This document shows, piece by piece, positions 10,824 to 28,154 of a stretch of 36,026 nt of DNA; the first letter of the stretch is position 1; each line of letters begins with the position of its first letter. The position numbers and the translations under genes were made by a program. The notes beneath the pieces are model-generated. The model did not search any database, was not told the DNA's origin, and worked only from the letters and a program-made list of their open reading frames with translations. The DNA is from Bacteroidota bacterium (GTDB lineage: Bacteria; Bacteroidota; Bacteroidia; B-17B0; Aurantibacillaceae): positions 1-36,026 of the forward strand of contig JAAFIL010000036.1 in the NCBI GenBank assembly GCA_013297775.1. The letters are read 5' to 3'.

Positions 10824-11005
10824 CCTATTGAAAAAATGGGCACAGACTAAAGCTAAAACAAGAAAAGAAAGATGTAACCCGAATTTATGACTTTTTAAAT
10901 GGAGTTATCTATAACTGTAAGGGAACGCATTATCTTTTCAACAATCAATTAGACTCTCGTTAACTGAACCAGAATACCAATAACCATAGTCGCCTATTTA
11001 GTGCG

Positions 11006-12733
11006 TTAATTAGCTTTAGGCGCTGGATTGGGTTCGGCGACCGCAGGTGCAACTTGCGCCACATTGGTTTTGCGCTCGAACACAAAGATGCGGTATTGCG
11101 ATTTTGGCGGCCGATTGGTTAAATCTATATCTGGTGTCCAAACGTATTCGGTGCCTGTATCTAACATATCGGCAAAACCAATTAAATTATAATTAGCGGT
11201 ACTAAATTTATCGAACCACGGAAAAATTAAATTCTTCACATTTGGATTTGCTAACCACGAAATAGAGTGAGAGTAAAATACCAAATATTTAGGTTCGGCT
11301 TTTTCAACATCTTTTATAAACTCTTGTTGCCACTCTTCCGATTTTTTAACGTTAAATTCTAACAAAGCACCCGAACCGGCAAAACGCGAAGGCGAACGTT
11401 TGTTGGTGTAAAAATACATTTGAATTTCGGTACCAAACACAGCTAATTTATCTTCGGGTTTCATAATGGTATTCAGTTTATCGGCAATAACTTTCGACTC
11501 AGGAAACGGATTTAAACCATATACCTCGCGGGTTAAATTAGGGCCTTGCTTGGTAAAGTAATACCGTTTCATGGTGCTGAGGTGCATAAATCCATACACG
11601 GTAATTAAACCTAAGGTTGCATACAATGCTGTTGTTTTTAGGTTGAACCGATCTCTTAAAATAACATGAAGTGCGTAAAAGAATGCACCCGCCCCAATAC
11701 AGGCTGCTGGCACCCATTGTAAAAAGTAGTGTCCGTAAAAGTGATAGCCTGGTGCTACAGATAAAGCACCTGCTAAATAAAAACCAATCACCGACCATTT
11801 AACCCAATTTTTGGCTTTGCTAAATAAAAGTAAAACAGGACCAATGGCCGAGAGCATCCAAATAAATTTGTAATCTTTATAAATGGCTGGCCAACTCATG
11901 TCTAAGTATTGCATGCCTTGGTCGTAAGAGGTACTGCTAGCGTATTCTTTTCTAATGTCGAAAAACCAGTAATGAAAATCGTCCCAACCGCCACGCATTT
12001 TAACCACCAACAAATCAATAGCTACCGGAATAATAACGGCTAATGAATAAATTAAGCAACTCATTAAAATACGTTTGTAGTTACGATCTTTGTCAAAGAA
12101 ATGATACGCCACCACCAACATGCCGCCTACCAAGCCATAAAACAAAGAAGTTTGTTTTACTTCAAAGGTAAGTGAGAAGAAGAAACCCGCCAAGGCCAAG
12201 CGCCACCATTTATTGGCTTCAAAATAACGAATCAATGCGTAAATACCTGCTACCGCAAACAACGCCACAATGTGTTCAGATTGAATGGTGAAGCCCGATA
12301 TGGATTTATTCATGGATAATAAAGCCCAACAAAGCGCAGCACCCAAGGCCGCCACATTGCTAAGCATTTTACGGGTAATTAAAAAAATGAGAATGGCACT
12401 AATGATATTGAGAAAAATAAAACCAAAGTGTAAGGCTTCTAAGGTATAACCAAACAAGGCCACCATTAATGCATACGAATAAAATACGCCCGGTAAACGC
12501 TGCGATCCAATGTCTTTAAAAGGAATGGCACCGTCTAAAATAATATTTCCACAGTAGGCGTACGAGCCTTCGTCGCGCTCGAACGGTACACTTAAAAAAT
12601 TAGAGCGGATAATGGCAATCAAAAAAATGATGAACGCTAAACCTGCTAAGTATAACCCATCTGTTTTATCGAAGCCAAAATAGGTTTTAGGTGCGTTGGG
12701 CTTTTGAGCCAATGTTTTTGAAGGTGAAGCCAT
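11006..12733 (-). CDS. GT-C family glycosyltransferase (ArnT/PMT_2-like)
   Basis: A 575-residue inner-membrane protein with roughly ten to twelve hydrophobic helices between about 27 and 385. The first periplasmic loop carries FERDEGSYAY (acidic pair Asp54-Glu55) followed by DIGSQRLPGVFYS. This is the arrangement of catalytic acidic residues in polyprenyl-phosphate-sugar-dependent GT-C enzymes of the PMT/ArnT/GT39-83 type. The last 190 residues form a soluble extracytoplasmic domain (AVFGTEIQMYFYTNKRSPSRF region) and end in an Ala/Pro/Asn-rich tail. It probably transfers a lipid-linked sugar to an envelope acceptor; donor and acceptor cannot be told. It is 67 nt downstream of the giant sensor gene on the same strand and may be read from the same transcript, but no shared function is evident. 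Confidence 0.8.
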   Translation of the reverse strand: MASPSKTLAQKPNAPKTYFGFDKTDGLYLAGLAFIIFLIAIIRSNFLSVPFERDEGSYAYCGNIILDGAIPFKDIGSQRLPGVFYSYALMVALFGYTLEALHFGFIFLNIISAILIFLITRKMLSNVAALGAALCWALLSMNKSISGFTIQSEHIVALFAVAGIYALIRYFEANKWWRLALAGFFFSLTFEVKQTSLFYGLVGGMLVVAYHFFDKDRNYKRILMSCLIYSLAVIIPVAIDLLVVKMRGGWDDFHYWFFDIRKEYASSTSYDQGMQYLDMSWPAIYKDYKFIWMLSAIGPVLLLFSKAKNWVKWSVIGFYLAGALSVAPGYHFYGHYFLQWVPAACIGAGAFFYALHVILRDRFNLKTTALYATLGLITVYGFMHLSTMKRYYFTKQGPNLTREVYGLNPFPESKVIADKLNTIMKPEDKLAVFGTEIQMYFYTNKRSPSRFAGSGALLEFNVKKSEEWQQEFIKDVEKAEPKYLVFYSHSISWLANPNVKNLIFPWFDKFSTANYNLIGFADMLDTGTEYVWTPDIDLTNRPPKSQYRIFVFERKTNVAQVAPAVAEPNPAPKAN

Positions 12734-12800: not shown

Positions 12801-15800
12801 TTACTCAACTTCAAAACAAAGTAAGCAAACATCGTCGGTTTGTTGCCCACCGCCTCGCCAGTCTAAATGCGCTTGTTGAATGAGTGCTTTTCGTTCGGCT
12901 TCGGGATAAGTAGCCATTTTAAGTAAAAGTTCTCTGAATTTAATTCGACCAAAGCGTTTGCCATTCAAAAGTCCAAATTGATCAATGTACCCATCGGTTG
13001 TTAGTATCACTATATCGCCCAGCTCCATGGCCATAAGGTGGGTTGTAAAATAGTTTTGCCTATCTACTTGAAACGAACCAATAGGGAAACGGTTACCTTT
13101 AATTTCGATGAGTTCTCCTTTTCGCACAATAAATAAGGTGTGCATGGCGGCACTGAAATGTAACAAGCGTGTTTTAGCATGGTATAATACGCACGAAATA
13201 TCTAAGCCATCTAAAATCTCGGTTTCGGAATTGGTTTGGTTAAGCGCCCCGCGCACCGATACATTCAAATGTTCGAGAATTAAGCCGGGGTCGGTTAAGC
13301 CTTTTTCTTTAATGGCTTGCTGCATGTAATTTGAGGCCAAGATGGTTAACAAAGAACCCGAAATGCCATGCCCCGTGCAATCGCCCACGGCTAAAATAGT
13401 GGCATCGTTGGCTTTATGAAACCAGTAAAAATCGCCACCCAAATCGTCGCGTTGCACAAAAAATAAAAACGATTTTGGAAAGGATTGTTTTAGCGTTAAA
13501 GGTGCCGACATAATAGCATCTTGTATGCGTTTGGCATAGGTGATGTTATCGCTAATGTCTTTATTTTTTTGAGAAATAATATCTTTATAAACAATTTGCT
13601 CAATGATTAAAGAGACCGACTCTTTAAGTTGTTTAATAATTGGTTTTTGTTCTTCAAAATTATTTAGCTCGCGCGAAAGCATATTAATGGCGCCAAATAG
13701 TTTACCATTTACAAACACGGGCACACAATAAACCGAGCGCATGGATACACTTAACCAATGCAAATCGTCGTCGGTTAATTCAGATTTACCCGATAAATCC
13801 GGAATGTCGTAATCTAAGTTCGCCTCAAAAAAAGGAATGGTTGGTAATTGAGTGGTAAGAATATTTTTATACTCTACATTCAGCGAAAGGCTATCCATGT
13901 AATAGAGGTGCCCATGTTGTTGGTCGTTTTCAAAAATAAGAAAGCTAACCCTGTGAATGTTATCTATTCTCGTATAAAGCAACTCAATTAAGTTAGTATA
14001 TAGTTTAGATAAAGACGTACTGTTGATAAGCAGTTGGCGGGCTTCATTGAGTAATTCTAAGCGTTTGGTATTTTTATTGATCTCCGCATTTTTAGAGGCA
14101 ATCACTTCATTTTGTTCGTCAATAGATAAGAAATTTTGAAGGGAGTTAGAAAGCTCAATTAAAAATTTCATATCCGATTTTTCATAAATATTTTCTTCGG
14201 TCGAGTACGTTCCAATAAACCCAATACTTTGCGTTGGATTTCGGAGCACCTTAAACATCATGGTTTTAGAATTAATGGAAGGTTGCTTGGTATCCATCGC
14301 AAATTGATAAATGGTGGCATAGTCGGCATCCTCTTGTTTGGCAATGCGTTCGTTGAGCGTATCTATATACAGTAACTGTTCGGCGTTAAGTGTAATTACT
14401 TCTTTGTATATAATGGTATTGTAGCGGCGAATACTGTAAACGGTAAGTGTAGAATTTACTTTATTAATAATATTGATGGAATAGGCTTTTGCAAAACGTG
14501 AGGCTTTAATAGTCAGAAGTAACAAACGATCTATTAAGGCATCTCGCTCTTTAGTGGAAATGATTAACTCTTTAATATGGTTTTGCTCTTCTAAGTCGTT
14601 ATTAATATATTCTAGCTGTTTCGAGTACCTCTGTATTTGCTCATTTTTGAGGTTAATGGCTAAATTGGAATAGTATTGTGAAATAAAAGAAGATGTAATG
14701 CTGGCAATGGATTCAACTTTTCGTAAATCTTCAGAATTGTATAACGATTCAGATGTTGTGTAAACGCCCAAAAAGCCATAGCGGTTTGAAATGGTTAGAA
14801 TGGGTACTAAAATGGCACAAGTTAAGTGTTCTAAAGGTTGATTAAACCAACTTAATTTTGTGTTCATCTCAGCTTCTGCTTTGTAAAAATAAAGTTGAGA
14901 TTCTAAAGAAAACAACATGGTGCGCATCTCCTCGCTAAGTTCATACTCGTAGCGTTTGAAAGGGCTATCTTTAAAGCCTTGGTATATGGCTATTTTTTCT
15001 TGGTCTGGATCTAAAATATTAAAACTATAACAATAAGACTTAACGGTTGTTGCCATAATATGTGTGAGCATGCGGTTGCAAACGTCGTCAATATCTTTAG
15101 CATAAATAACACTTTCTTTTAAAGAGTTTTCGTAGTGTAGCTCGTCGTTTAAGTCTTCTAGTTTTAATAAATACGAATGAATTTCTTCGTTTTTGGTAGA
15201 GATGATTCGCTTTTGCTCGGCTTGTGTAAAGTTAATGGTGAGGTAATTACTAACGTCGTCTAAAACCGATAAATAATCTTCGGCAAAAACCATGGCTTGT
15301 TCGGAGAAAACGTTTAAATAACCAAATAATTGCGTTGTTGTTTTAAGTGGAATGCTAAGTGCCTGCGATGGATTTTTAAGAAGCGCGGCATCTTGCTTTA
15401 AGTAATCGGGAAATTCATCAAACACCTGAATGCGCTTTACGCTGCTGGTTTTTAACAACTGCGAAGCACTGTCGGTTAAGGTATAACTCGATTTTAATAC
15501 CTCATCCGAAAGCGTGTTAAGAGCATATTGTTTAACCAAATGTGGCGTATCGAAAATACCAATGCTAAAATATTCGTTTTGCCGACGGTTATTAAATAGT
15601 TTTTTGAGTACACCTTCTAACAACACTTCTTCGTCTTCTTGGTGGCGTAAGATTAATTCTTTTACTTGGTTTAATACATTTAAGTCGTTGTTGGCTATTC
15701 TGAGTTTTTCTTCAGCTTCAACCCGTTTGGTAATATCTCTACAAATGGCTTGTGTGCCTTTAAATGTTTTGGTTATTTTATCTTCTAAAAAAAGTACTTG

Positions 15801-18800
15801 TTGACCCACCCACACAATTTTGTTGGCTTTTGTAACAATCGGAAATTCGAGGTAAGATTCTTGTTCTTTGCTTTTTAATTGCAAGGCATAAAACGTGGCT
15901 ACTTTTCGTTGGTGGTCGCGTTTAATAATATCTTTAAAATTTTTGGTTAACAACTCTTCTTTTGAATACCCCGTTACTTGAACAGCAATATCGTTCACAT
16001 AAGTAAAATCGCCATTGATAGAGGTGATATAAATAATATCTTTTGCATTTTCAACAATGTGCGAAAATCGTTTTTCATAGTTTTGTTTTTCGGTTACATC
16101 GCTACCTACCGAAACAGTAACGCCACTTTCTAAACGGGTATTTTGCCATTCTATCCAAAAGGAACGGCCGTTAGTGCCATTGATTAAGTTTAAAGATGTT
16201 TTAGGTATGGTGCCATTAATAATTGTTTCTTTCGCGCTTACTGTTTTTTGATTGTCTTTCTGCAAAATCCACCAGCCTTCATTTAATATTTCGGCTTCGG
16301 GTAGCCCCACCAGTTGGCTAAGGGCATGGTTAACAAAAATAATTTGTGCGTTACTGTTAGAGGCAATCACCAGTGTGTTACCTTTATTCATAACCGTATC
16401 TGCAAACAGAAGGCGTTGCCCTACATTTAATTTAACAAGCAACGAAATGAAACTTATAAAAAGAGAGGTAATAATAGCCAACGCAAATAAGACTTGATTG
16501 TATTCGGGAGATGAGCGCAAAATAATGAGTATAACCATCACACTAATTACAAAAGCAGCAAAATAAACGTAGCGTCTTATTTTTTCGATGATGAGGGTGC
16601 TTACCGTAACCGATAAGGTAAGGCTAATTACCGAAAAGGCATTTACATTGGCAATGTAAGTAACGGTCGAGTAACTCAATACAATAATTACATAAAGAAT
16701 AACAACTGTTGTATAAATATTTTTTTGAATGAAACGGCTGGTAAACGTAAGAACCCCTGTGCCAAGTAATAATACACCTACGCCAGATAGTATAAATAAT
16801 TTTATGTCGTATTCGTTATTAACGACGGCATTTATAAAACTGGCAAATGGAATAACGACTCCTGCAAAAAATAGCATGAGGCGAGCGGTTTGCAGGTTAA
16901 TAAACGTACTTTCTAAATCATTGATGAGTTCGTTTTTAAACCGTTGATTACTTCTAAAAAAATAAGTAAACAGCACCAAACAGATAATCATAACTAAGAA
17001 TCCAAAAAACCGCGTTCTCCAAAAAGGTGGTTTTTTATCGAAACTAAGTCTAATTGGCTTACCCCAAGTATTGCCTTGTCCTTTGGCTTTTAGGTCAACA
17101 AAGCTTAAGCCCGTTTGTATAGCTGGTAAAAATAATTCTTCTCCTTCGCCCAAAGAAATCCAAGTAGAGGTGTCTTTACTTAAACGGTACGCATAATCCA
17201 AGTTTTCGTTGGTGCTGTATTTAATACCAACAAATTTAATAATAAGGGTATTGGCATCGCTATTTAATTTGAAAAGGACGGGTAAGCCACTTTTATCAAA
17301 ATGGTTAGGGAATTGTAGTGGGTCAATTTCTTTATCATTAACTATGATGCTGCTCACCCTAATTTTAGGCGAAATGGAATTATCTTTAATTAAATTATTA
17401 AACAAGAGCAAGCCATTATCGCTTCCTACGGCAACCTCGCCCTTGTTAAACGTTTGAACCATACACGCTGGCGATAACTCGAAAGATACATCGTAATTTT
17501 CGGCTCTGAAGTAATAAACATTGGTTTGATTGCCTTTGAACTTAACGACATTAATGTATTTGGGCGAAGATAAAATAAGTTGATTGGTGTCAATAACTTC
17601 GACGTTAAAAAGATTATTCGATGCTAAGTAATTGGCCGTTGTTAAATGCGTTACCTTGTGTTTTTTTACATCGTAAATAAATAGCCCCATGCAATTGGTG
17701 GCCACGTAAATAAAATGCTTGTAAACTTTAATGGTGTGAATGGTAACATTTTCGAAGTTAAGGCTATCTAAAGGGAACGATTTTATTTGGAAGTGCTTAT
17801 CCATAAACAATAAGCCATTGTTAGTGCCAATGAGCAAGGTATCGCCACTCATGCTTTTTTCAAAACACGTTACATCGCTATCGAGAGTATCGGTTATGAC
17901 CGACGTTTTTTTTGTGCTGCGATTAAACGCATATATTTTTCCATACTCGGATGAAAAAAACAAATTGTCTTTAAAATCAGTAATGACTCTAATGGGCTCG
18001 TCGCTTTCGAGAACTTTAATTTTAGGAGAACTGAACTGTCCGTTTTTGAACCAACGCACAAAGCCATTGGCATAGCCCGCCATAAAAACGCCAGGTGTTA
18101 TTTCGGAGAGTGAGTGAACGGGATCGGTTTTTGTTTCTTCTACTAAATTAATGTTTGCATTTTTGATGCAACTGATGTAACCTCCGCTTAAACCAATCAA
18201 TTGTTGATTGGGTTCATCGCGAAATAAATGTTGTACCCTATCTCCTAAGAGGTTATGGTTTTTATTTAAGTTAATAATCCCATTTTTTTTAAATTTTACG
18301 ATTCCATGTGTGGTCGTAGCCAACCAAACATCGCCTTCTGTATCGCAAAAAATAGTAATGATGTTGGTGTATTTAAGCCCATTTTTTTCATTAATTAATT
18401 CTAACTTTTTGTTTTGATACTTCAGTAATCCTTGGCCGTATGCTGCCATCCAAAGTGTGTTGCTGCTTTTTTCGAATTGCAAGGATAGTATTTTAGGAGG
18501 AAGCGGAACACCCGACTCTATATTTAAGGGACTTACCACTTTGTTTTTAAGCCAATACACGCCTTCTTTTTTAGAAACGATGTAATAACTTTGATCTAAT
18601 CCTTCGGCCACATCGCCAATCAAAGGTTTGTTGAGCCAGTCTTTGGGTAAAATTTGTGCGCTTACATCTTTACCAAGTTTTAAGTTATAAATTCGCAATT
18701 GCCCTTGTTTTATGGTAACCCAAAGGTTATCTCTGCTATCTAAAAAAAACTTGAATAAGTGAAGCGTATCTAGTTCGGTGTGTGTAATTACTTTTTTTAA

Positions 18801-19253
18801 TTGTTGTCCTTGTAATTTATACAACCCTCTCGAACTAAGGGCGTAGGTTGTATCGCGAAAGTTAAATAGACGTGTTAATTGATGTTGGGGTGTTTCGCCT
18901 TTAAAAGGTATTTTATGAAAGTAACGCCCGCTTCCTTCGTAAAGTGTATGAAACGTGCTGAAATAATAGTGCGAACTGGTTTCACAAAACGCATTAATAG
19001 GTGCATGAAAGTAAGCGTCGTTTTCTATTTTTACATTTGAAAAAGAATAACTGTCGTAAAAACGAACGCCTTGCGTAAACCCAAACCACATAAGTCCCGA
19101 TTTATCTTGATACATGCTACTAACGTGCGTATCGGGAATACCATCTCTAAGACCATAATAATCGAAAGCGTAACTTTGTGCTTTACTAAGTTGTGCACTA
19201 ATCAACACACTAGAAAGGATAAAAAATTGAATTATTTTTTTTTGTAGTTTCAC
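12801..19253 (-). CDS. Giant sensor phosphatase: Reg_prop/Y_Y_Y, membrane block, 2 PAS, 4 GAF-like, SpoIIE
   Basis: A 2150-residue protein. GTG start at 19253 followed by a signal peptide (about 1-25, ending LSKAQS). Reg_prop beta-propeller repeats fill about 28-640 (YYGLRDGIPDTHVSSMYQDKSG, GLMWFGFTQGV, EGDVWLATTTHGI). A Y_Y_Y-type domain is at about 664-744. One helix at about 748-768 is followed by a six-helix membrane block (about 790-940). Cytoplasmic modules are PAS at about 954-1060, PAS/PAC at about 1064-1175 and four GAF-like domains at about 1198-1340, 1376-1524, 1558-1708 and 1734-1884, joined by similar helical linkers. It ends with a SpoIIE/PP2C phosphatase (about 1925-2150) with metal-binding motifs DLGGDFYW, GDCTGHGISG and LTTDGYIDQFG and end motif QTDDVCL. 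It should dephosphorylate a serine/threonine-phosphorylated partner, such as an STAS anti-sigma antagonist, in response to a periplasmic signal; none is encoded nearby. Confidence 0.9.
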   Translation of the reverse strand: MKLQKKIIQFFILSSVLISAQLSKAQSYAFDYYGLRDGIPDTHVSSMYQDKSGLMWFGFTQGVRFYDSYSFSNVKIENDAYFHAPINAFCETSSHYYFSTFHTLYEGSGRYFHKIPFKGETPQHQLTRLFNFRDTTYALSSRGLYKLQGQQLKKVITHTELDTLHLFKFFLDSRDNLWVTIKQGQLRIYNLKLGKDVSAQILPKDWLNKPLIGDVAEGLDQSYYIVSKKEGVYWLKNKVVSPLNIESGVPLPPKILSLQFEKSSNTLWMAAYGQGLLKYQNKKLELINEKNGLKYTNIITIFCDTEGDVWLATTTHGIVKFKKNGIINLNKNHNLLGDRVQHLFRDEPNQQLIGLSGGYISCIKNANINLVEETKTDPVHSLSEITPGVFMAGYANGFVRWFKNGQFSSPKIKVLESDEPIRVITDFKDNLFFSSEYGKIYAFNRSTKKTSVITDTLDSDVTCFEKSMSGDTLLIGTNNGLLFMDKHFQIKSFPLDSLNFENVTIHTIKVYKHFIYVATNCMGLFIYDVKKHKVTHLTTANYLASNNLFNVEVIDTNQLILSSPKYINVVKFKGNQTNVYYFRAENYDVSFELSPACMVQTFNKGEVAVGSDNGLLLFNNLIKDNSISPKIRVSSIIVNDKEIDPLQFPNHFDKSGLPVLFKLNSDANTLIIKFVGIKYSTNENLDYAYRLSKDTSTWISLGEGEELFLPAIQTGLSFVDLKAKGQGNTWGKPIRLSFDKKPPFWRTRFFGFLVMIICLVLFTYFFRSNQRFKNELINDLESTFINLQTARLMLFFAGVVIPFASFINAVVNNEYDIKLFILSGVGVLLLGTGVLTFTSRFIQKNIYTTVVILYVIIVLSYSTVTYIANVNAFSVISLTLSVTVSTLIIEKIRRYVYFAAFVISVMVILIILRSSPEYNQVLFALAIITSLFISFISLLVKLNVGQRLLFADTVMNKGNTLVIASNSNAQIIFVNHALSQLVGLPEAEILNEGWWILQKDNQKTVSAKETIINGTIPKTSLNLINGTNGRSFWIEWQNTRLESGVTVSVGSDVTEKQNYEKRFSHIVENAKDIIYITSINGDFTYVNDIAVQVTGYSKEELLTKNFKDIIKRDHQRKVATFYALQLKSKEQESYLEFPIVTKANKIVWVGQQVLFLEDKITKTFKGTQAICRDITKRVEAEEKLRIANNDLNVLNQVKELILRHQEDEEVLLEGVLKKLFNNRRQNEYFSIGIFDTPHLVKQYALNTLSDEVLKSSYTLTDSASQLLKTSSVKRIQVFDEFPDYLKQDAALLKNPSQALSIPLKTTTQLFGYLNVFSEQAMVFAEDYLSVLDDVSNYLTINFTQAEQKRIISTKNEEIHSYLLKLEDLNDELHYENSLKESVIYAKDIDDVCNRMLTHIMATTVKSYCYSFNILDPDQEKIAIYQGFKDSPFKRYEYELSEEMRTMLFSLESQLYFYKAEAEMNTKLSWFNQPLEHLTCAILVPILTISNRYGFLGVYTTSESLYNSEDLRKVESIASITSSFISQYYSNLAINLKNEQIQRYSKQLEYINNDLEEQNHIKELIISTKERDALIDRLLLLTIKASRFAKAYSINIINKVNSTLTVYSIRRYNTIIYKEVITLNAEQLLYIDTLNERIAKQEDADYATIYQFAMDTKQPSINSKTMMFKVLRNPTQSIGFIGTYSTEENIYEKSDMKFLIELSNSLQNFLSIDEQNEVIASKNAEINKNTKRLELLNEARQLLINSTSLSKLYTNLIELLYTRIDNIHRVSFLIFENDQQHGHLYYMDSLSLNVEYKNILTTQLPTIPFFEANLDYDIPDLSGKSELTDDDLHWLSVSMRSVYCVPVFVNGKLFGAINMLSRELNNFEEQKPIIKQLKESVSLIIEQIVYKDIISQKNKDISDNITYAKRIQDAIMSAPLTLKQSFPKSFLFFVQRDDLGGDFYWFHKANDATILAVGDCTGHGISGSLLTILASNYMQQAIKEKGLTDPGLILEHLNVSVRGALNQTNSETEILDGLDISCVLYHAKTRLLHFSAAMHTLFIVRKGELIEIKGNRFPIGSFQVDRQNYFTTHLMAMELGDIVILTTDGYIDQFGLLNGKRFGRIKFRELLLKMATYPEAERKALIQQAHLDWRGGGQQTDDVCLLCFEVE

Positions 19254-19635: not shown

Positions 19636-21750
19636 ATGTTTAATCGCACAGTAAAAAACTACATAGTGCTTATTGGGTTGTTACTAATGGCAACAACCTT
19701 AAAAGCCCAAAAGACGAGGGATTTGGAGGAGGAGGCCTACTATCAACTTGAAAATAGAGAGTTTGGAAAGGCTTATGCTTTATTCGATAAACTGTACAAT
19801 AAAGATCCTAAAAACTTCGATTATAAATACCGCTTGGGTTTATGTTGTTTAAGCTATCCTGAACGGAAAAGCCGAGCTATTGAAATTTTTGAAGAGATTA
19901 AAACAAAAAATAAATTAAAAGATATTGATTTTTTTCTGGGGAAAGCGTATCATTTGAATTACCGTTTTAACGATGCCATTACTTACATGCAGCGTTACAT
20001 AGATGCCCACACGCAAACGCAAGCTAAAGATATAGAGTGGCCATTGGTTCAAGAAGCGAAATTATTAATTAAAAACAGCACCAACGGATTTAACATTGGC
20101 AACATGAAAATTAAAGCCGATATAAAAAACTTGGGCACACCGCTTAACACCGACGAAGAAGAGTATGTACCTGTTATAACTACCGATGAGTCTATTTTAA
20201 TTTACACCTACCGAGGTAAAAAAAGTTTAGGTGGATTGGTTAATGATAATTTAGAACCCGACAACGACGAGGGGTATTTTCATGAAGATGTTTACATTAC
20301 TGTGCGAGGTGCCGATTCTGTTTGGGGTGCAGGCACAGCAATTACTTCTATTAACACCAAAGGACACGATGCGGCCATAGCCATATCGCCCGATGGACAG
20401 ACCCTGTTTACCTTTACAAGCACTAAACGCGATAGTGGCGATATTTATGTGAGTAAATTAACAGGTTCAGAGTTTACTAAACCCGAGCGTTTAAACCGAA
20501 ATATTAATACCAGTTCGTGGGAAGGGAGTTGCTCCATTTCGGCCGATGGTCGTTTTTTATATTTTGCAAGCGAACGCAAAGGTGGATATGGAGGTAGAGA
20601 TATTTGGGTAAGCGAGTGGATAAATAACGATTGGAGTACTGCCAAAAATTTAGGAGATAAAATTAATACACCCTACGATGATGACGCTCCGTTTATTCAT
20701 CCAGACGGCATCACGTTGTTTTTTAGTTCGAAGGGGCATACCAGCATTGGAGGTTATGACATTATGTTTTCTATTAAAAAAGATAACGAATGGTTAGAGC
20801 CTAAAAACATGGGCATACCGTTAAACACCACCGAAGATGATATGTATTACGTTATTAATTCGAGTGGTACACGCGGGTATTTTAGCAGTAACCGTGGCGG
20901 CACAGGCGGGAAAGGTAAAAATGATATTTACGTGGTTGAGCCAGGTATCTTAGGCGAGAAGCCAGTTATAGCCATGCTTAAAGGAACTATTTATGGCGAT
21001 GATAAACCTATTGAAAGTAAAATTCAAGTAACAAAAAATCCGGGAACCAATGTGTTAGGTCCTTACTATTCTAATAAGGAAAGTGGAAAATATTTAATGG
21101 CAGTTAGCCCAGGGGCTTCTTACCGAATTAAAATCGAAGCCAATGGTTACGAGTCTTTAGAAGAAGATTTAGATGTTGAGAGTTTGAATAAATTTGTGGA
21201 GTTGAAAAAAGATTTTTATTTGTACTCGCCGCCAGTAGTCGCCAGCCGCAAACAAGCCACCTTTAATCAATTGCTCGATAGTATTTACAATAAGGTTACA
21301 AATGCCGAAAACTTGAATAAGGATATACCCACCGATCCTCCTGTTAAAACACTTCCTTGTGGCGGCACACAAACTTTGCCTAATTTTAACCCGCTTAAAG
21401 GTAAATCGTTAAACGACCGCGCCACTTACGAAAAATTATTAAACATGGCTGGTAATTATTGCGCCGAGGGTTTAGTTTTTAAAGTGCAAATTGCGGCTTA
21501 CCGTAAACCCGAAAATTATAAATACGAACGTTTGTTAGAGTTTGGCGAACCAAGCCGAGCCGATTATCCAGACGGCATTACACGTTTTACGCAGTTACAA
21601 TTTACGACTCTAAAAGAAGCAGAGGTTCACCGTCAGAAAGCGATTGCTAAAGGACAAACCGATGCGTGGGTGGTTGCATTTGTAAATGGAAAACGTTACA
21701 CCTTAGAAGAATTAATTCTACTTGATTTTTTAGGGAAGTCAGTAAATTAA
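19636..21750 (+). CDS. PorE-like envelope protein: TPR, PD40 propeller, CNA/CRD-like, SPOR-like end
   Basis: A 704-residue exported protein. Signal peptide 1-24 (cleavage after LKA) without a lipobox cysteine. A TPR-like helical region covers about 28-140. PD40/WD40-like propeller repeats are at about 165-435, with recurring DE-x-LIYTYRG, SPDGQTLFTFTS, SADGRFLYFASERKGGYGGRDIW, HPDGITLFFSSKGH and SSGTRGYFSSNRGG. A carboxypeptidase-regulatory/CNA-like beta domain is at about 441-518. The C-terminal 613-695 (LVFKVQIAAYRKPE and TRFTQLQFTTLKEAEVHRQKAIAKG) looks like a SPOR-type peptidoglycan-binding fold. Porphyromonas gingivalis PorE has TPR, WD40, CRD and an OmpA-like end, so this protein has the same order with a different wall-binding module. 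Anchoring envelope machinery to peptidoglycan is inferred. Domain calls for TPR and PD40 are firm. Confidence 0.82.
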   Translation: MFNRTVKNYIVLIGLLLMATTLKAQKTRDLEEEAYYQLENREFGKAYALFDKLYNKDPKNFDYKYRLGLCCLSYPERKSRAIEIFEEIKTKNKLKDIDFFLGKAYHLNYRFNDAITYMQRYIDAHTQTQAKDIEWPLVQEAKLLIKNSTNGFNIGNMKIKADIKNLGTPLNTDEEEYVPVITTDESILIYTYRGKKSLGGLVNDNLEPDNDEGYFHEDVYITVRGADSVWGAGTAITSINTKGHDAAIAISPDGQTLFTFTSTKRDSGDIYVSKLTGSEFTKPERLNRNINTSSWEGSCSISADGRFLYFASERKGGYGGRDIWVSEWINNDWSTAKNLGDKINTPYDDDAPFIHPDGITLFFSSKGHTSIGGYDIMFSIKKDNEWLEPKNMGIPLNTTEDDMYYVINSSGTRGYFSSNRGGTGGKGKNDIYVVEPGILGEKPVIAMLKGTIYGDDKPIESKIQVTKNPGTNVLGPYYSNKESGKYLMAVSPGASYRIKIEANGYESLEEDLDVESLNKFVELKKDFYLYSPPVVASRKQATFNQLLDSIYNKVTNAENLNKDIPTDPPVKTLPCGGTQTLPNFNPLKGKSLNDRATYEKLLNMAGNYCAEGLVFKVQIAAYRKPENYKYERLLEFGEPSRADYPDGITRFTQLQFTTLKEAEVHRQKAIAKGQTDAWVVAFVNGKRYTLEELILLDFLGKSVN

Positions 21751-25208: not shown

Positions 25209-28154
25209 ATGCCTAATAAACTCCTTATCCTCTTCCTTTTTTTGGTGAAATGTTGGCCTGCGCAGCAGTATTACTTTAAAAATTACAGTGCCGAAGATGG
25301 ATTACCATTTGTTCAAGTATATGCCATGTATCAAGATAATAAAGGCTATTTGTGGTGCGGAGGTTATGGAGGCTTGAGCAAATTTGATGGACAAACTTTT
25401 ACCAACTATTCTCCTAAAAATGGACTCGTTGACCATTATGTAAACGCCATTATAGAAGATGAAAAAGGACGCATCTATGTAGCCACTCGCGAAGGATTAA
25501 GCGTAATTGAAACCAATCGCATAACAAATTACACCGCAAAACAAGGCTTAAAAGCACGAAATATTAAAGCCCTTTACAAAGGGTTTGCCCACGGCGTTTA
25601 CATTGGCAGCGAAAACGGACTGTACAAACTTGCCAACGACTCTATTACAGAACTGCCTTTATTTAAAGGACGCAACATCAATTACCTCACCAAAATTGGA
25701 GATAACACCTTGTGTGTAGGCACCAACGATGGCTTATTTCTATCCAGCCACGAAGGAATGCAACACATAGATACTTCTGTTGGTTTAGCTAACCAACGCG
25801 TTAACTGTGTTTTAGAATTAAAATCTAAACACCAATTACTAATCGGAACAGCCAAAGGACTTACCTTTTATGATTTAATTACCAAAAAATGTGTGAACTA
25901 CTTTATCGAAAACGGATTAATAGATGAATTTATTACCACACTTTTAGCCGAACACGACGAAAAAGTGTGGATTGGTACCACCAGCGGCTTAATGCAGTTC
26001 GATGGTGTAACCTTTCATTTTTATTCGTTAGGAGAAGAATATAACGCCAATATTATTCGCACCCTCATGCTAGATTATGAAGATAATTTATGGATAGGAA
26101 CCCACAACGGATTTTTCAAATACCGCGATAACTCGTTTAACACATTCGACAAAGCAACAGGTCCAGGCAACGCCTCCTTGTACCAAATTTTTAGAGACCG
26201 AAATAAAAACTTATGGATGTGTAGCGATAACAATGGAATTTACCGCTACACCGATGGCTATTTTAAACGGTACTCGCTTCGCGATGGTTTACCCAGTATT
26301 ATTTGCCGTTCGGGTTTAGAAGATAACGATGGAAAATTGTGGTTTGGTACACAAAATGCGGTGTGTATATTCGAGAACGAACAGTTTTACCCGCTTCAAT
26401 TGCCCAATCGTTTCAACGGCGCTTACGACGTTTTATACAAAGCAAAAAATGGAAACATTTATATTGGCGGTAGTGGTGCGTATGCTAAATCCACAAAAGT
26501 ATTAAACGGCTATGCGTTCGAGAAACGCGATTTACCAAGTAATAGCAATTTTCCGGTTGAAGCATTTGGCGAAGATCAACAAGGCCGTTTATGGATTGGC
26601 ACGTGGGGCGATGGGCTATATTTAGAAACGAAACGTGGCCTAGTTAATTACAGTAAAGAACATGGTATTAAAATGGATGGTTTTTTTACAATCTTGATAG
26701 ATAACGATAATTTTTTATATGCACCAACATTAAGCGGTTTATTTATCCTAGATATAACTACCGATAAATATTACCTTATCTCTGAAAAAGATGGACTCAA
26801 CTCAGAGTTGTGTTACGCCATTAACTTTGCCGAAAACAAAAAATCGCTTTGGATAGGAACCAACCAAGGCATCAATAAATTAGATTTAGAAGCGCTAAAA
26901 AAAAATAATAAAATTCAAATTAAGTCATTTGGTAGAAACGAAGGGTTTAGTGGAGTAGAGTGCAACGCCTACGGAATATGGGAAGATAACGATAGCACAC
27001 TTTGGTTTGGCACAGTAAACGGATTAATAAAACACAGTCAGCAAGTTTTTAAACGTAATTTAATGGCACCACGTTTAGTCATCAACTCCATCGAAGTAAT
27101 GAATAAAGATACGCTGCTGCCCGATTTTAGCGAACTAGATCATTACAATAATTCCATCTCCTTTTATTACCGCGGAATTTGTTTAACCAATCCCGAAAAC
27201 GTTTTATACCAACGTAAATTAGAAGGACTTGATAAAGAGTGGAGTTCTCCGAGCCGCGACTACTTTTGTAAATACGCTAATTTATCGCCCGGTAATTATA
27301 TCTTAAAAGTTAAAAGCTGCAACAACGAAGGGATATGGAACGAGACCCCCACAGAGTTTCATTTCACCATTAAAACGCCCTTTTATAGTACATGGTGGTT
27401 TTTAACCTGCGTGTTTGGCGCATTGGCATTTGGGGTTTATATTGTTTTCCGTTTGCGCTTACGCAACATCAAAAAAACACAACAAAAAGAATTTGAACGC
27501 AAAGTAGAAATGAGTAAAATAGAATTAAAAGCTTTGCGCAGTCAAATGAATCCTCATTTCGTATTCAACTCACTCAACTCCATTCAACACTATATTTTCA
27601 ATAATAAAAGCGATGAAGCCATTAAATATTTAAATAAATTTGCACGGTTAGTGCGCATCATCTTAAATAATAGCGATAAGCCAACCGTTACCGTTGCCGA
27701 AGATTTAGAAGCCCTTCATCTCTATTTAGAGTTAGAACAAATGCGTTTCGATAATAAATTCGATTATAGCATTAAACTAGATGAAACGGTAGATGAAGAT
27801 TACGATGTGATGCCGCCTTTGTTAATGCAACCGTATGTTGAAAATGCTATTTTACATGGACTCAATCCTAAACCCGATAAAGGGGTGTTATCCATTCACA
27901 TCTCTACCGAAAATAATTTAATCATTTGCACAATTACCGATAACGGAATTGGTCGTAAACGAGCTGGAGAAATAAAACGCACCATGCCAGGTCGCAAACA
28001 CACATCTTTAGGAATGAAAATTACCGAAGAACGCTTAAAAATTTTGAATGAAATTTACCGTTCTAATCTGAATGTAAAAATTACCGATTTAGAAAACGAA
28101 GACGGAATACCAACGGGTACAAAAGTTGTACTTCATATACCAATAATTTCTTAA
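25209..28154 (+). CDS. Reg_prop/Y_Y_Y sensor histidine kinase, LytS type
   Basis: A 981-residue membrane sensor kinase. Signal peptide about 1-20. A periplasmic propeller of Reg_prop repeats covers about 22-640 (YSAEDGLPFVQVYAMYQDNKG, GYLWCGGYGGLSKFDG and repeats ending LWIGT). Y_Y_Y domain at about 648-724, one transmembrane helix at about 728-749, then the His_kinase (LytS/YehU) domain. The phospho-acceptor is His783 in RSQMNPHFVFNSLNS. MPPLLMQPYVENAILHGL is the N box and DNGIGRKRAGE the G box near 910; TSLGMKITEERLKIL follows. Unlike hybrid HTCS sensors it has no receiver or DNA-binding part. The response regulator starts 10 nt downstream, so they form a pair. A propeller that reads a carbohydrate or other periplasmic ligand is the usual inference for this sensor type; the ligand is not known. 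Confidence 0.95.
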   Translation: MPNKLLILFLFLVKCWPAQQYYFKNYSAEDGLPFVQVYAMYQDNKGYLWCGGYGGLSKFDGQTFTNYSPKNGLVDHYVNAIIEDEKGRIYVATREGLSVIETNRITNYTAKQGLKARNIKALYKGFAHGVYIGSENGLYKLANDSITELPLFKGRNINYLTKIGDNTLCVGTNDGLFLSSHEGMQHIDTSVGLANQRVNCVLELKSKHQLLIGTAKGLTFYDLITKKCVNYFIENGLIDEFITTLLAEHDEKVWIGTTSGLMQFDGVTFHFYSLGEEYNANIIRTLMLDYEDNLWIGTHNGFFKYRDNSFNTFDKATGPGNASLYQIFRDRNKNLWMCSDNNGIYRYTDGYFKRYSLRDGLPSIICRSGLEDNDGKLWFGTQNAVCIFENEQFYPLQLPNRFNGAYDVLYKAKNGNIYIGGSGAYAKSTKVLNGYAFEKRDLPSNSNFPVEAFGEDQQGRLWIGTWGDGLYLETKRGLVNYSKEHGIKMDGFFTILIDNDNFLYAPTLSGLFILDITTDKYYLISEKDGLNSELCYAINFAENKKSLWIGTNQGINKLDLEALKKNNKIQIKSFGRNEGFSGVECNAYGIWEDNDSTLWFGTVNGLIKHSQQVFKRNLMAPRLVINSIEVMNKDTLLPDFSELDHYNNSISFYYRGICLTNPENVLYQRKLEGLDKEWSSPSRDYFCKYANLSPGNYILKVKSCNNEGIWNETPTEFHFTIKTPFYSTWWFLTCVFGALAFGVYIVFRLRLRNIKKTQQKEFERKVEMSKIELKALRSQMNPHFVFNSLNSIQHYIFNNKSDEAIKYLNKFARLVRIILNNSDKPTVTVAEDLEALHLYLELEQMRFDNKFDYSIKLDETVDEDYDVMPPLLMQPYVENAILHGLNPKPDKGVLSIHISTENNLIICTITDNGIGRKRAGEIKRTMPGRKHTSLGMKITEERLKILNEIYRSNLNVKITDLENEDGIPTGTKVVLHIPIIS

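Follow-up and report, generated by a model that had tools for sequence, protein, structure and literature searches.

A 2150-residue Bacteroidia receptor joining a propeller sensor to a SiaA-like phosphatase: a probable input to a SiaC partner switch

Introduction

On which protein does a receptor phosphatase act when no partner gene lies beside its own? The question is raised by a gene on the minus strand (12801..19253) of a 36,026-nucleotide stretch of DNA from a Bacteroidota bacterium of the Aurantibacillaceae (contig JAAFIL010000036.1, assembly GCA_013297775.1). This stretch, hereafter the window, is the whole of contig C59 in a genome (G000) of 4.35 Mb in 128 contigs. From a GTG start, the gene encodes 2150 residues, which a first-pass annotation made from the letters alone had described as a propeller, seven helices, two PAS domains, four GAF-like domains and a SpoIIE phosphatase in a single chain; Pfam, hydropathy, segment scans and a fold model confirm this composition. 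The switch protein SiaC is known for biofilm control in another bacterium. Here we argue that the protein is probably a receptor with several inputs that acts on a SiaC partner switch, whose effector would not be a GGDEF enzyme.

According to PMC7647112 and PMC8457831, SiaA of Pseudomonas aeruginosa dephosphorylates SiaC at Thr68 and SiaB phosphorylates it, the PP2C domain of SiaA forms a dimer, and the diguanylate cyclase SiaD is the target of SiaC.

Results

The C-terminal domain of the receptor (12804..13577, residues 1893–2150; all receptor features lie on the minus strand) is a SiaA-like PP2C/SpoIIE phosphatase by Pfam, PDB entry 6k4e and the NCBIfam SiaA model. Pfam places SpoIIE at residues 1950–2149 (3.2e-22) and the four motif types of the metal site are intact, as had been proposed for this end of the protein. 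SpoIIE stands at the output position, and Pfam finds no HisKA, His_kinase or HATPase match anywhere in the chain. Among PDB sequences the sole match at E ≤ 0.01 is SiaA of P. aeruginosa (6k4e, 6.7e-27), and the NCBIfam model (NF038263) matches with 171.5 bits (2.9e-50), over positions 404–658 of its 658 only. The genome holds 17 SpoIIE genes, and by BLAST the window domain matches 15 of the 16 other frames; the one left over is a canonical phosphatase on contig C107, whose domain (a 189-residue stretch) gave no SiaA-model match at 1e-06. Paralogues that lie beside SiaB or SiaC genes score 202.5 bits (contig C67), 179.5 and 164.2 bits (C52) and 164.3 bits (C1).

A helical linker with the motif NITYAKRIQ (13479..13589, residues 1889–1925) leads into the phosphatase and may act as a switch. 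A loose pattern of this motif occurs in 43 of 46 chosen phosphatases and is missing in that of genome G168, in an own paralogue on contig C45 and in the canonical C107 protein. In a tree of 46 chosen SpoIIE rows, two of them very long (G168 and C107), the window protein stands near that of G335 with weak support (89/49), and the deep order is not resolved. A further SpoIIE protein, about 1750 residues long, is present in several genomes of the same genus (L016, L017 and L018), and two copies pair together in the tree.

Other parts of a SiaC switch are encoded in the same genome, which contains six SiaC matches and seven SiaB matches over the cut-off, plus one below it. The solved relative of the SiaC proteins is 6kko_C, a DUF1987 (SiaC) chain (1e-18). 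That of the SiaB proteins is 6kko_A (1.5e-07), entered as 'putative serine phosphatase', which we take as SiaB because PMC7647112 cites a SiaB–SiaC co-crystal. At the place of P. aeruginosa SiaC Thr68, as numbered in the same paper, five of the six own proteins have Thr and one has Ser; over an alignment of 14 chosen SiaC rows, of which the L052 row has a cut or shifted start, the count is 11 Thr and 3 Ser. Two SiaC rows left out of the alignment, a 390-residue protein on contig C52 and one in G019 (10976–11275), both have Thr. The C52 protein (L103:347-1516) carries an N-terminus of about 265 residues without known identity ahead of its SiaC domain, and is a candidate for a fusion of SiaC with its effector.

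These switch genes are linked to paralogues of the receptor. Contig C67 carries, on one strand, a Reg_prop-SpoIIE gene, a 313-residue frame, SiaB and SiaC. On C52 there is a run of TPR-SpoIIE, SiaB, SiaB and SiaC, as well as a GAF/PAS-SpoIIE gene with SiaB, and on C1 a SiaC frame is followed 189 bases on by a Reg_prop-PAS-SpoIIE frame. Of the seven SiaB/SiaC clusters, four have one of the 17 SpoIIE genes within 1 kb (chance ∼6.6e-06) and five within 5 kb (∼7.6e-06), under a simple placement model that ignores contig ends and operon duplication. Relatives of the receptor itself can also adjoin the switch. In G335, which has the nearest full-length relative outside the genus, SiaC comes directly after the gene; the two frames overlap by five bases, and the first ATG lies about 20 bases past the stop. 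SiaC directly follows the gene in G019 too, and the gene in G014 is followed by SiaC, SiaB and SiaC.

SiaC occurs in 213 of 395 genomes of the class and SpoIIE in 315. At least three SpoIIE matches are present in 199 of the 213 SiaC genomes and in 6 of the 182 others (Fisher p ∼6e-86, kinship of genomes ignored). Among the matches listed for the input block of the receptor (residues 740–1181, treated below), SiaC is found in 14 of 14 genomes that carry the block with SpoIIE output, in 0 of 5 that carry it with kinase output, and also in G168.

Several observations weigh against a SiaC substrate. No SiaB or SiaC match was found on contig C59, nor in the scanned stretches around the related genes of G052, G344, G205 and six genomes of family f38, and SiaB/SiaC genes adjoin the receptor in only 3 of the 13 SpoIIE-type hosts scanned, G199 lying outside the scan. 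The window domain, at 171.5 bits, falls below the 700-bit cut-off for full-length SiaA, and an unlinked paralogue on contig C96 scores 167.4 bits, a value with which the SiaA score fails to separate linked from unlinked paralogues. In the class-wide counts, SpoIIE matches were taken to about eight per genome and are hence lower bounds, and 14 SiaC genomes have only one or two such matches. The co-occurrence of SiaC with the input block is uncorrected for lineage, and all five kinase-output hosts belong to one family (f54). The phosphatase activity of the receptor is predicted from sequence and an outside ligand presumed from its propeller, and the genome also has a STAS gene and a small HATPase_c_2 gene.

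These last two genes could be read as parts of an RsbU/SpoIIE-type pathway, in which the receptor would dephosphorylate an anti-anti-sigma protein of the STAS family, kept bound by an RsbW-type kinase, and thereby control a sigma factor. The PP2C/SpoIIE domain is of the family that this would take, and one STAS gene (contig C91) and one small HATPase_c_2 gene (contig C24, a 136-residue frame) are present genome-wide. However, STAS, HATPase_c_2 and receptor lie on three different contigs, SiaA is the only solved sequence relative at E ≤ 0.01, and the canonical phosphatase on C107 would be the likelier partner of STAS. We therefore regard this reading as improbable. The first-pass annotation had remarked that no STAS or anti-sigma kinase gene was nearby, and indeed neither STAS nor HATPase_c_2 has a match on C59; the genome-wide look for such partners that it had suggested yields the single STAS gene and the single small HATPase_c_2 gene, both on other contigs. 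No sigma factor was seen among the 10 window open reading frames scanned with Pfam, in which no search was aimed at sigma factors. Its remark that the pathway was unknown holds for the neighbourhood, since C59 has no SiaB, SiaC, STAS or HATPase_c_2 match, but not for the genome: paralogous phosphatases there have SiaC and SiaB as neighbours, and the receptor's own domain resembles that of SiaA.

The SiaC reading has to do without the effector of the P. aeruginosa system. No GGDEF match was found in the own genome at E ≤ 0.01, in a search that matched 8 of 14 controls, and none exceeded the cut-off in any of 26 picked genomes, the own one included; a single match below the cut-off came from G157. 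SiaC was demonstrated in 24 of these 26 genomes, the remaining two being G049 and G008. We know of no SiaC effector other than SiaD. The described effector, a GGDEF enzyme, is thus missing where tested, and because no GGDEF protein was found, the effector here should not be a diguanylate cyclase of the SiaD type and the output of SiaC must differ from that in P. aeruginosa.

Upstream of the phosphatase, the receptor is assembled from sensory parts. A putative signal peptide (19179..19253, about residues 1–25, with a hydrophobic stretch at 7–25) precedes the periplasmic propeller region, which Pfam recognizes as Reg_prop (17379..19175, residues 27–625; 1.3e-08 in the whole chain, 2.7e-10 in a segment). 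The window gene begins with GTG at 19253, its orthologue in G052 has a GTG at codon 18, and neither frame has an ATG upstream of the mature part. A Y_Y_Y-like domain (17055..17222, about residues 678–733) is placed from the Pfam match in the G052 orthologue (7.4e-4), the window protein itself giving no Y_Y_Y match in the whole chain or in segments. Hydropathy then predicts a first membrane helix (16956..17012, residues 748–766), lying in a stretch (743–770) that is 86% identical in G052, and six further helices (16434..16880, about residues 792–940), without a named Pfam domain. The seven hydrophobic peaks fall at 748–766, 793–811, 819–837, 850–868, 872–890, 896–914 and 921–939. Two or three Lys/Arg residues mark each of the four predicted inner segments and none is found in the three short outer loops, which is consistent with a topology that places the propeller outside and the C terminus inside. 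The inside-positive rule is imperfect here, because seven Lys/Arg lie in the outer segment that precedes the first helix. When the membrane block of 16 members was scanned with Pfam, no convincing family came up (MASE, MHYT or 7TMR-DISM; MHYT appeared in two, at best 0.74), and a single-sequence model of the membrane part is uninformative (pLDDT 59, pTM 0.25).

The membrane block is followed by two PAS domains, PAS 1 (16089..16370, residues 962–1055; PAS_9 1.5e-05 in a segment scan) and PAS 2 (15714..16070, residues 1062–1180). The latter is matched in the whole chain by PAS_9 (6.1e-13, best stretch 1072–1176) and by sensory_box (2.1e-27, best stretch 1060–1184).

Between PAS 2 and the linker lie four GAF-like domains, three stretches of which are matched by GAF_2 when Pfam is run on the whole chain. 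In the following, profile percentages come from comparison against five Pfam-positive GAFs. GAF-like 1 (15138..15662, residues 1198–1372) has a weak GAF_2 match (0.017) and a profile value of 91.3%; GAF-like 2 (14634..15137, residues 1373–1540) matches GAF_3 (4.5e-05) and GAF_2 (7.6e-05), with a direct profile value of 15.2%; and GAF-like 4 (13590..14087, residues 1723–1888) matches GAF_2 (4e-04), with 96.7%. GAF-like 3 (14088..14633, residues 1541–1722) gave no GAF family in Pfam segment scans and a profile value of 11.4%, but reaches 97.8% when compared with GAF 2. A model whose alignment held nothing but the four copies from the window (pLDDT 78.5, pTM 0.77) has a GAF fold: in Foldseek the best solved structure scores 1.8e-07 and 3k2n_A 1.0e-06, the matches listed are mostly GAF-bearing, and 157 residues superpose on 3ci6_B (Z 16.1, rmsd 2.9). 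We therefore reject the view that the third domain is not a GAF, despite the silence of Pfam. We count four GAF-like domains, the third on the strength of its modelled fold and its kinship to GAF 2. The absence of GAF-like folds from 1198–1884 had been set beforehand as a point of refutation; since such folds are found there by Pfam, profiles and the fold model, the domain assignment is not refuted.

All named matches to the receptor gene are from Bacteroidota. G052 holds a 2166-residue frame (L083:6473-12970) that is 57% identical over residues 23–2150 by BLAST, and because this orthologue is full length, a chance or artefactual reading frame at 12801–19253 is ruled out. The plan is kept exactly in G052, with every domain 45–86% identical, and the surroundings are syntenic: a glycosyltransferase and a type IX secretion system plug-type protein (83% each), arginyl-tRNA synthetase (80%) and a PD40 protein (76%).

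To follow the architecture further, the 442-residue input block (residues 740–1181) was searched over the 395 class genomes, and matches covering at least 90% of it in one piece were taken as hosts. Left out in this way were shorter matches, such as G080 (86%), and a second G052 protein (2019 residues, SpoIIE output) that matches in two pieces. Among the matches listed there are 20 hosts: 14 with SpoIIE output (G000, G052, G335, G148, G210, G265, G205, G076, G115, G180, G019, G344, G199 and G014), five with HisKA-HATPase-REC output (G230, G281, G256, G103 and G138), all of family f54, and G168. Outputs were assigned by Pfam for G000, G052, G335, G210, G344, G019, G205, G014 and the five kinase types, by BLAST to the window SpoIIE domain for the other five f38 members, and by sequence motifs for G199. 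By motif patterns, GGD is missing in G148. With the membrane block alone (194 residues) as query, 4 of 40 genomes of the genus match, the own genome included; only the longer query brings in G019 and G014, which also belong to it. The G168 protein (L137:4897-9108) joins the input block to a SpoIIE-like end without the GGD, DxTGHG, DG and DD motifs; it is kept outside the two groups for that reason, and by its sequence is possibly a pseudophosphatase receptor.

Propeller similarity to the window protein is found by BLAST in G052, G335, six f38 genomes, G344, G019, G199, G168 and the kinase-type G230 and G281. It was not found by BLAST in G205, in G014, which has a weak Reg_prop match by Pfam, or in G256, G103 and G138, and these three of the five kinase-type hosts have no Reg_prop match either. 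The stalk varies as well: the f38 member G210 has three PAS and one GAF, G344 has no GAF match, and G019 has many PAS. In G205 the protein is 895 residues long and lacks a propeller. The 1233-residue G049 protein has the block, PAS, SpoIIE and, judged by alignment, three GAF-like domains, again without a propeller, and two contig-end pieces in G008 show the same parts, the GAF-like domains also by alignment, with no propeller seen. The plan occurs in genomes of three families, with stalks of smaller or greater length, and in one family (f54) this input block sits on hybrid histidine kinases.

The architecture is therefore not unique to the window: the plan recurs, its stalk varies, and one output can be exchanged for another. 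The receptor might on this evidence be an ordinary member of a set of lineage-specific swollen sensors in which the number of PAS and GAF domains drifts and the exact count means little. Relatives that vary in PAS/GAF number, lack the propeller (G049, G205) or end in a kinase speak for this; the exact plan shared with G052, in which each domain is conserved, speaks against it. We consider it a possible account, although less than likely, and it is compatible with a SiaC substrate.

Divergent from the receptor gene lies a plus-strand gene for a TPR/PD40 protein (19636..21750) that resembles PorE and CHU_0125; both models score below their cut-offs, and Pfam finds PD40 only. The divergent pair recurs in G052, G049 and G008, in the latter two with no propeller seen in the receptor. 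Such constancy, together with the lack of SiaB and SiaC beside the window gene, would fit a private substrate other than SiaC or STAS, possibly in a pathway with this envelope-related gene. Because of its resemblance to PorE and CHU_0125, however, the neighbour is probably an outer-envelope protein, beyond the reach of a cytoplasmic phosphatase, and a common neighbourhood may reflect shared regulation only. A private substrate thus appears doubtful to us.

Elsewhere in the window (25209–28154) a Reg_prop/Y_Y_Y/His_kinase protein is followed by a response regulator resembling LytR/BtsR, which extends to 28917; this is the usual two-protein form of such sensors.

Discussion

We favour a model in which a multi-input receptor acts on SiaC. 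The propeller would sense an outside ligand or the state of the envelope. By way of the first helix and then the block of six, the signal would reach the tandem PAS-PAS-GAF4 stalk, where signals from inside would be added. Stalk and NITYAKRIQ linker would together govern how active the SiaA-like PP2C dimer is. The earlier proposal that outside, membrane and inside signals are integrated into one dephosphorylation step draws its support from this anatomy. From the substrate onward, the model is built by analogy with SiaABC and on the linkage of the paralogues. The active receptor would dephosphorylate one or more phosphorylated SiaC-family proteins, which SiaB-family kinases would rephosphorylate, and its activity would therefore raise the level of unphosphorylated SiaC. 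In this form SiaC would bind an effector other than a SiaD-type diguanylate cyclase. Substrate, switching through dimer and linker, direction of the signal and effector are each what we infer from these comparisons.

A broader picture, which we put forward tentatively, is that the SiaA-SiaB-SiaC switch is enlarged in Bacteroidia and runs there without GGDEF enzymes that make cyclic-di-GMP. A large number of receptors, the 2150-residue one among the most elaborate, may converge on a few shared SiaC proteins and through them on some other effector, with the input block exchanged between phosphatase and kinase outputs. The tally of the own genome, 17 SpoIIE genes against 6 SiaC, 7 SiaB and 1 STAS, would then mean that many receptors signal to the same few switch proteins. 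This offers a testable substrate for a large group of orphan phosphatases, and the placement of one input block on a phosphatase or a hybrid kinase in different genomes makes a clean case for how receptors change their output. Among the papers listed from the open-licence part of PMC, outside which most subscription journals lie, we saw none joining SpoIIE with Reg_prop and none on SiaC partner switching in Bacteroidota. What appears to be new is the joining of sensing like that of hybrid two-component systems (HTCS) to a SiaA-like phosphatase.

The receptor shares features with several known systems. Like the B. subtilis RsbU/SpoIIE phosphatases, it belongs to the PP2C/SpoIIE family, but it has no linked STAS or HATPase_c_2 gene, and among solved structures its sequence is nearer to SiaA. 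With the HTCS and LytS-type kinases of Bacteroidota it has in common a Reg_prop part before a membrane helix; in contrast to these, six more helices follow and a phosphatase takes the place of the kinase. The same input block does bear a HisKA-HATPase-REC output in G230 and G281, and we do not file the receptor as HTCS because it has no histidine-kinase output. The short Reg_prop-SpoIIE proteins of Bacteroidota (∼1050–1100 residues), exemplified by the own C67 protein (by Pfam) and one of Thermophagus xiamenensis (L030, by BLAST only), also join a propeller to a SpoIIE output, but the C67 protein has no PAS or GAF match, and the length of these proteins leaves no room for six more helices and a stalk. 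SiaA of P. aeruginosa resembles the receptor in its C-terminal PP2C domain, in the presence of SiaB and SiaC families in the genome and in the conserved phospho-acceptor motif. It differs in that the sensor part here is a propeller, seven helices, two PAS and four GAF domains, in that no siaB or siaC lies on contig C59, and in that no GGDEF effector was found. We do not file the receptor as SiaA because three defining features of SiaA, a score above the 700-bit cut-off, siaB and siaC in the same operon and a GGDEF SiaD, are absent; it is instead a SiaA-like phosphatase under a sensor of the HTCS kind.

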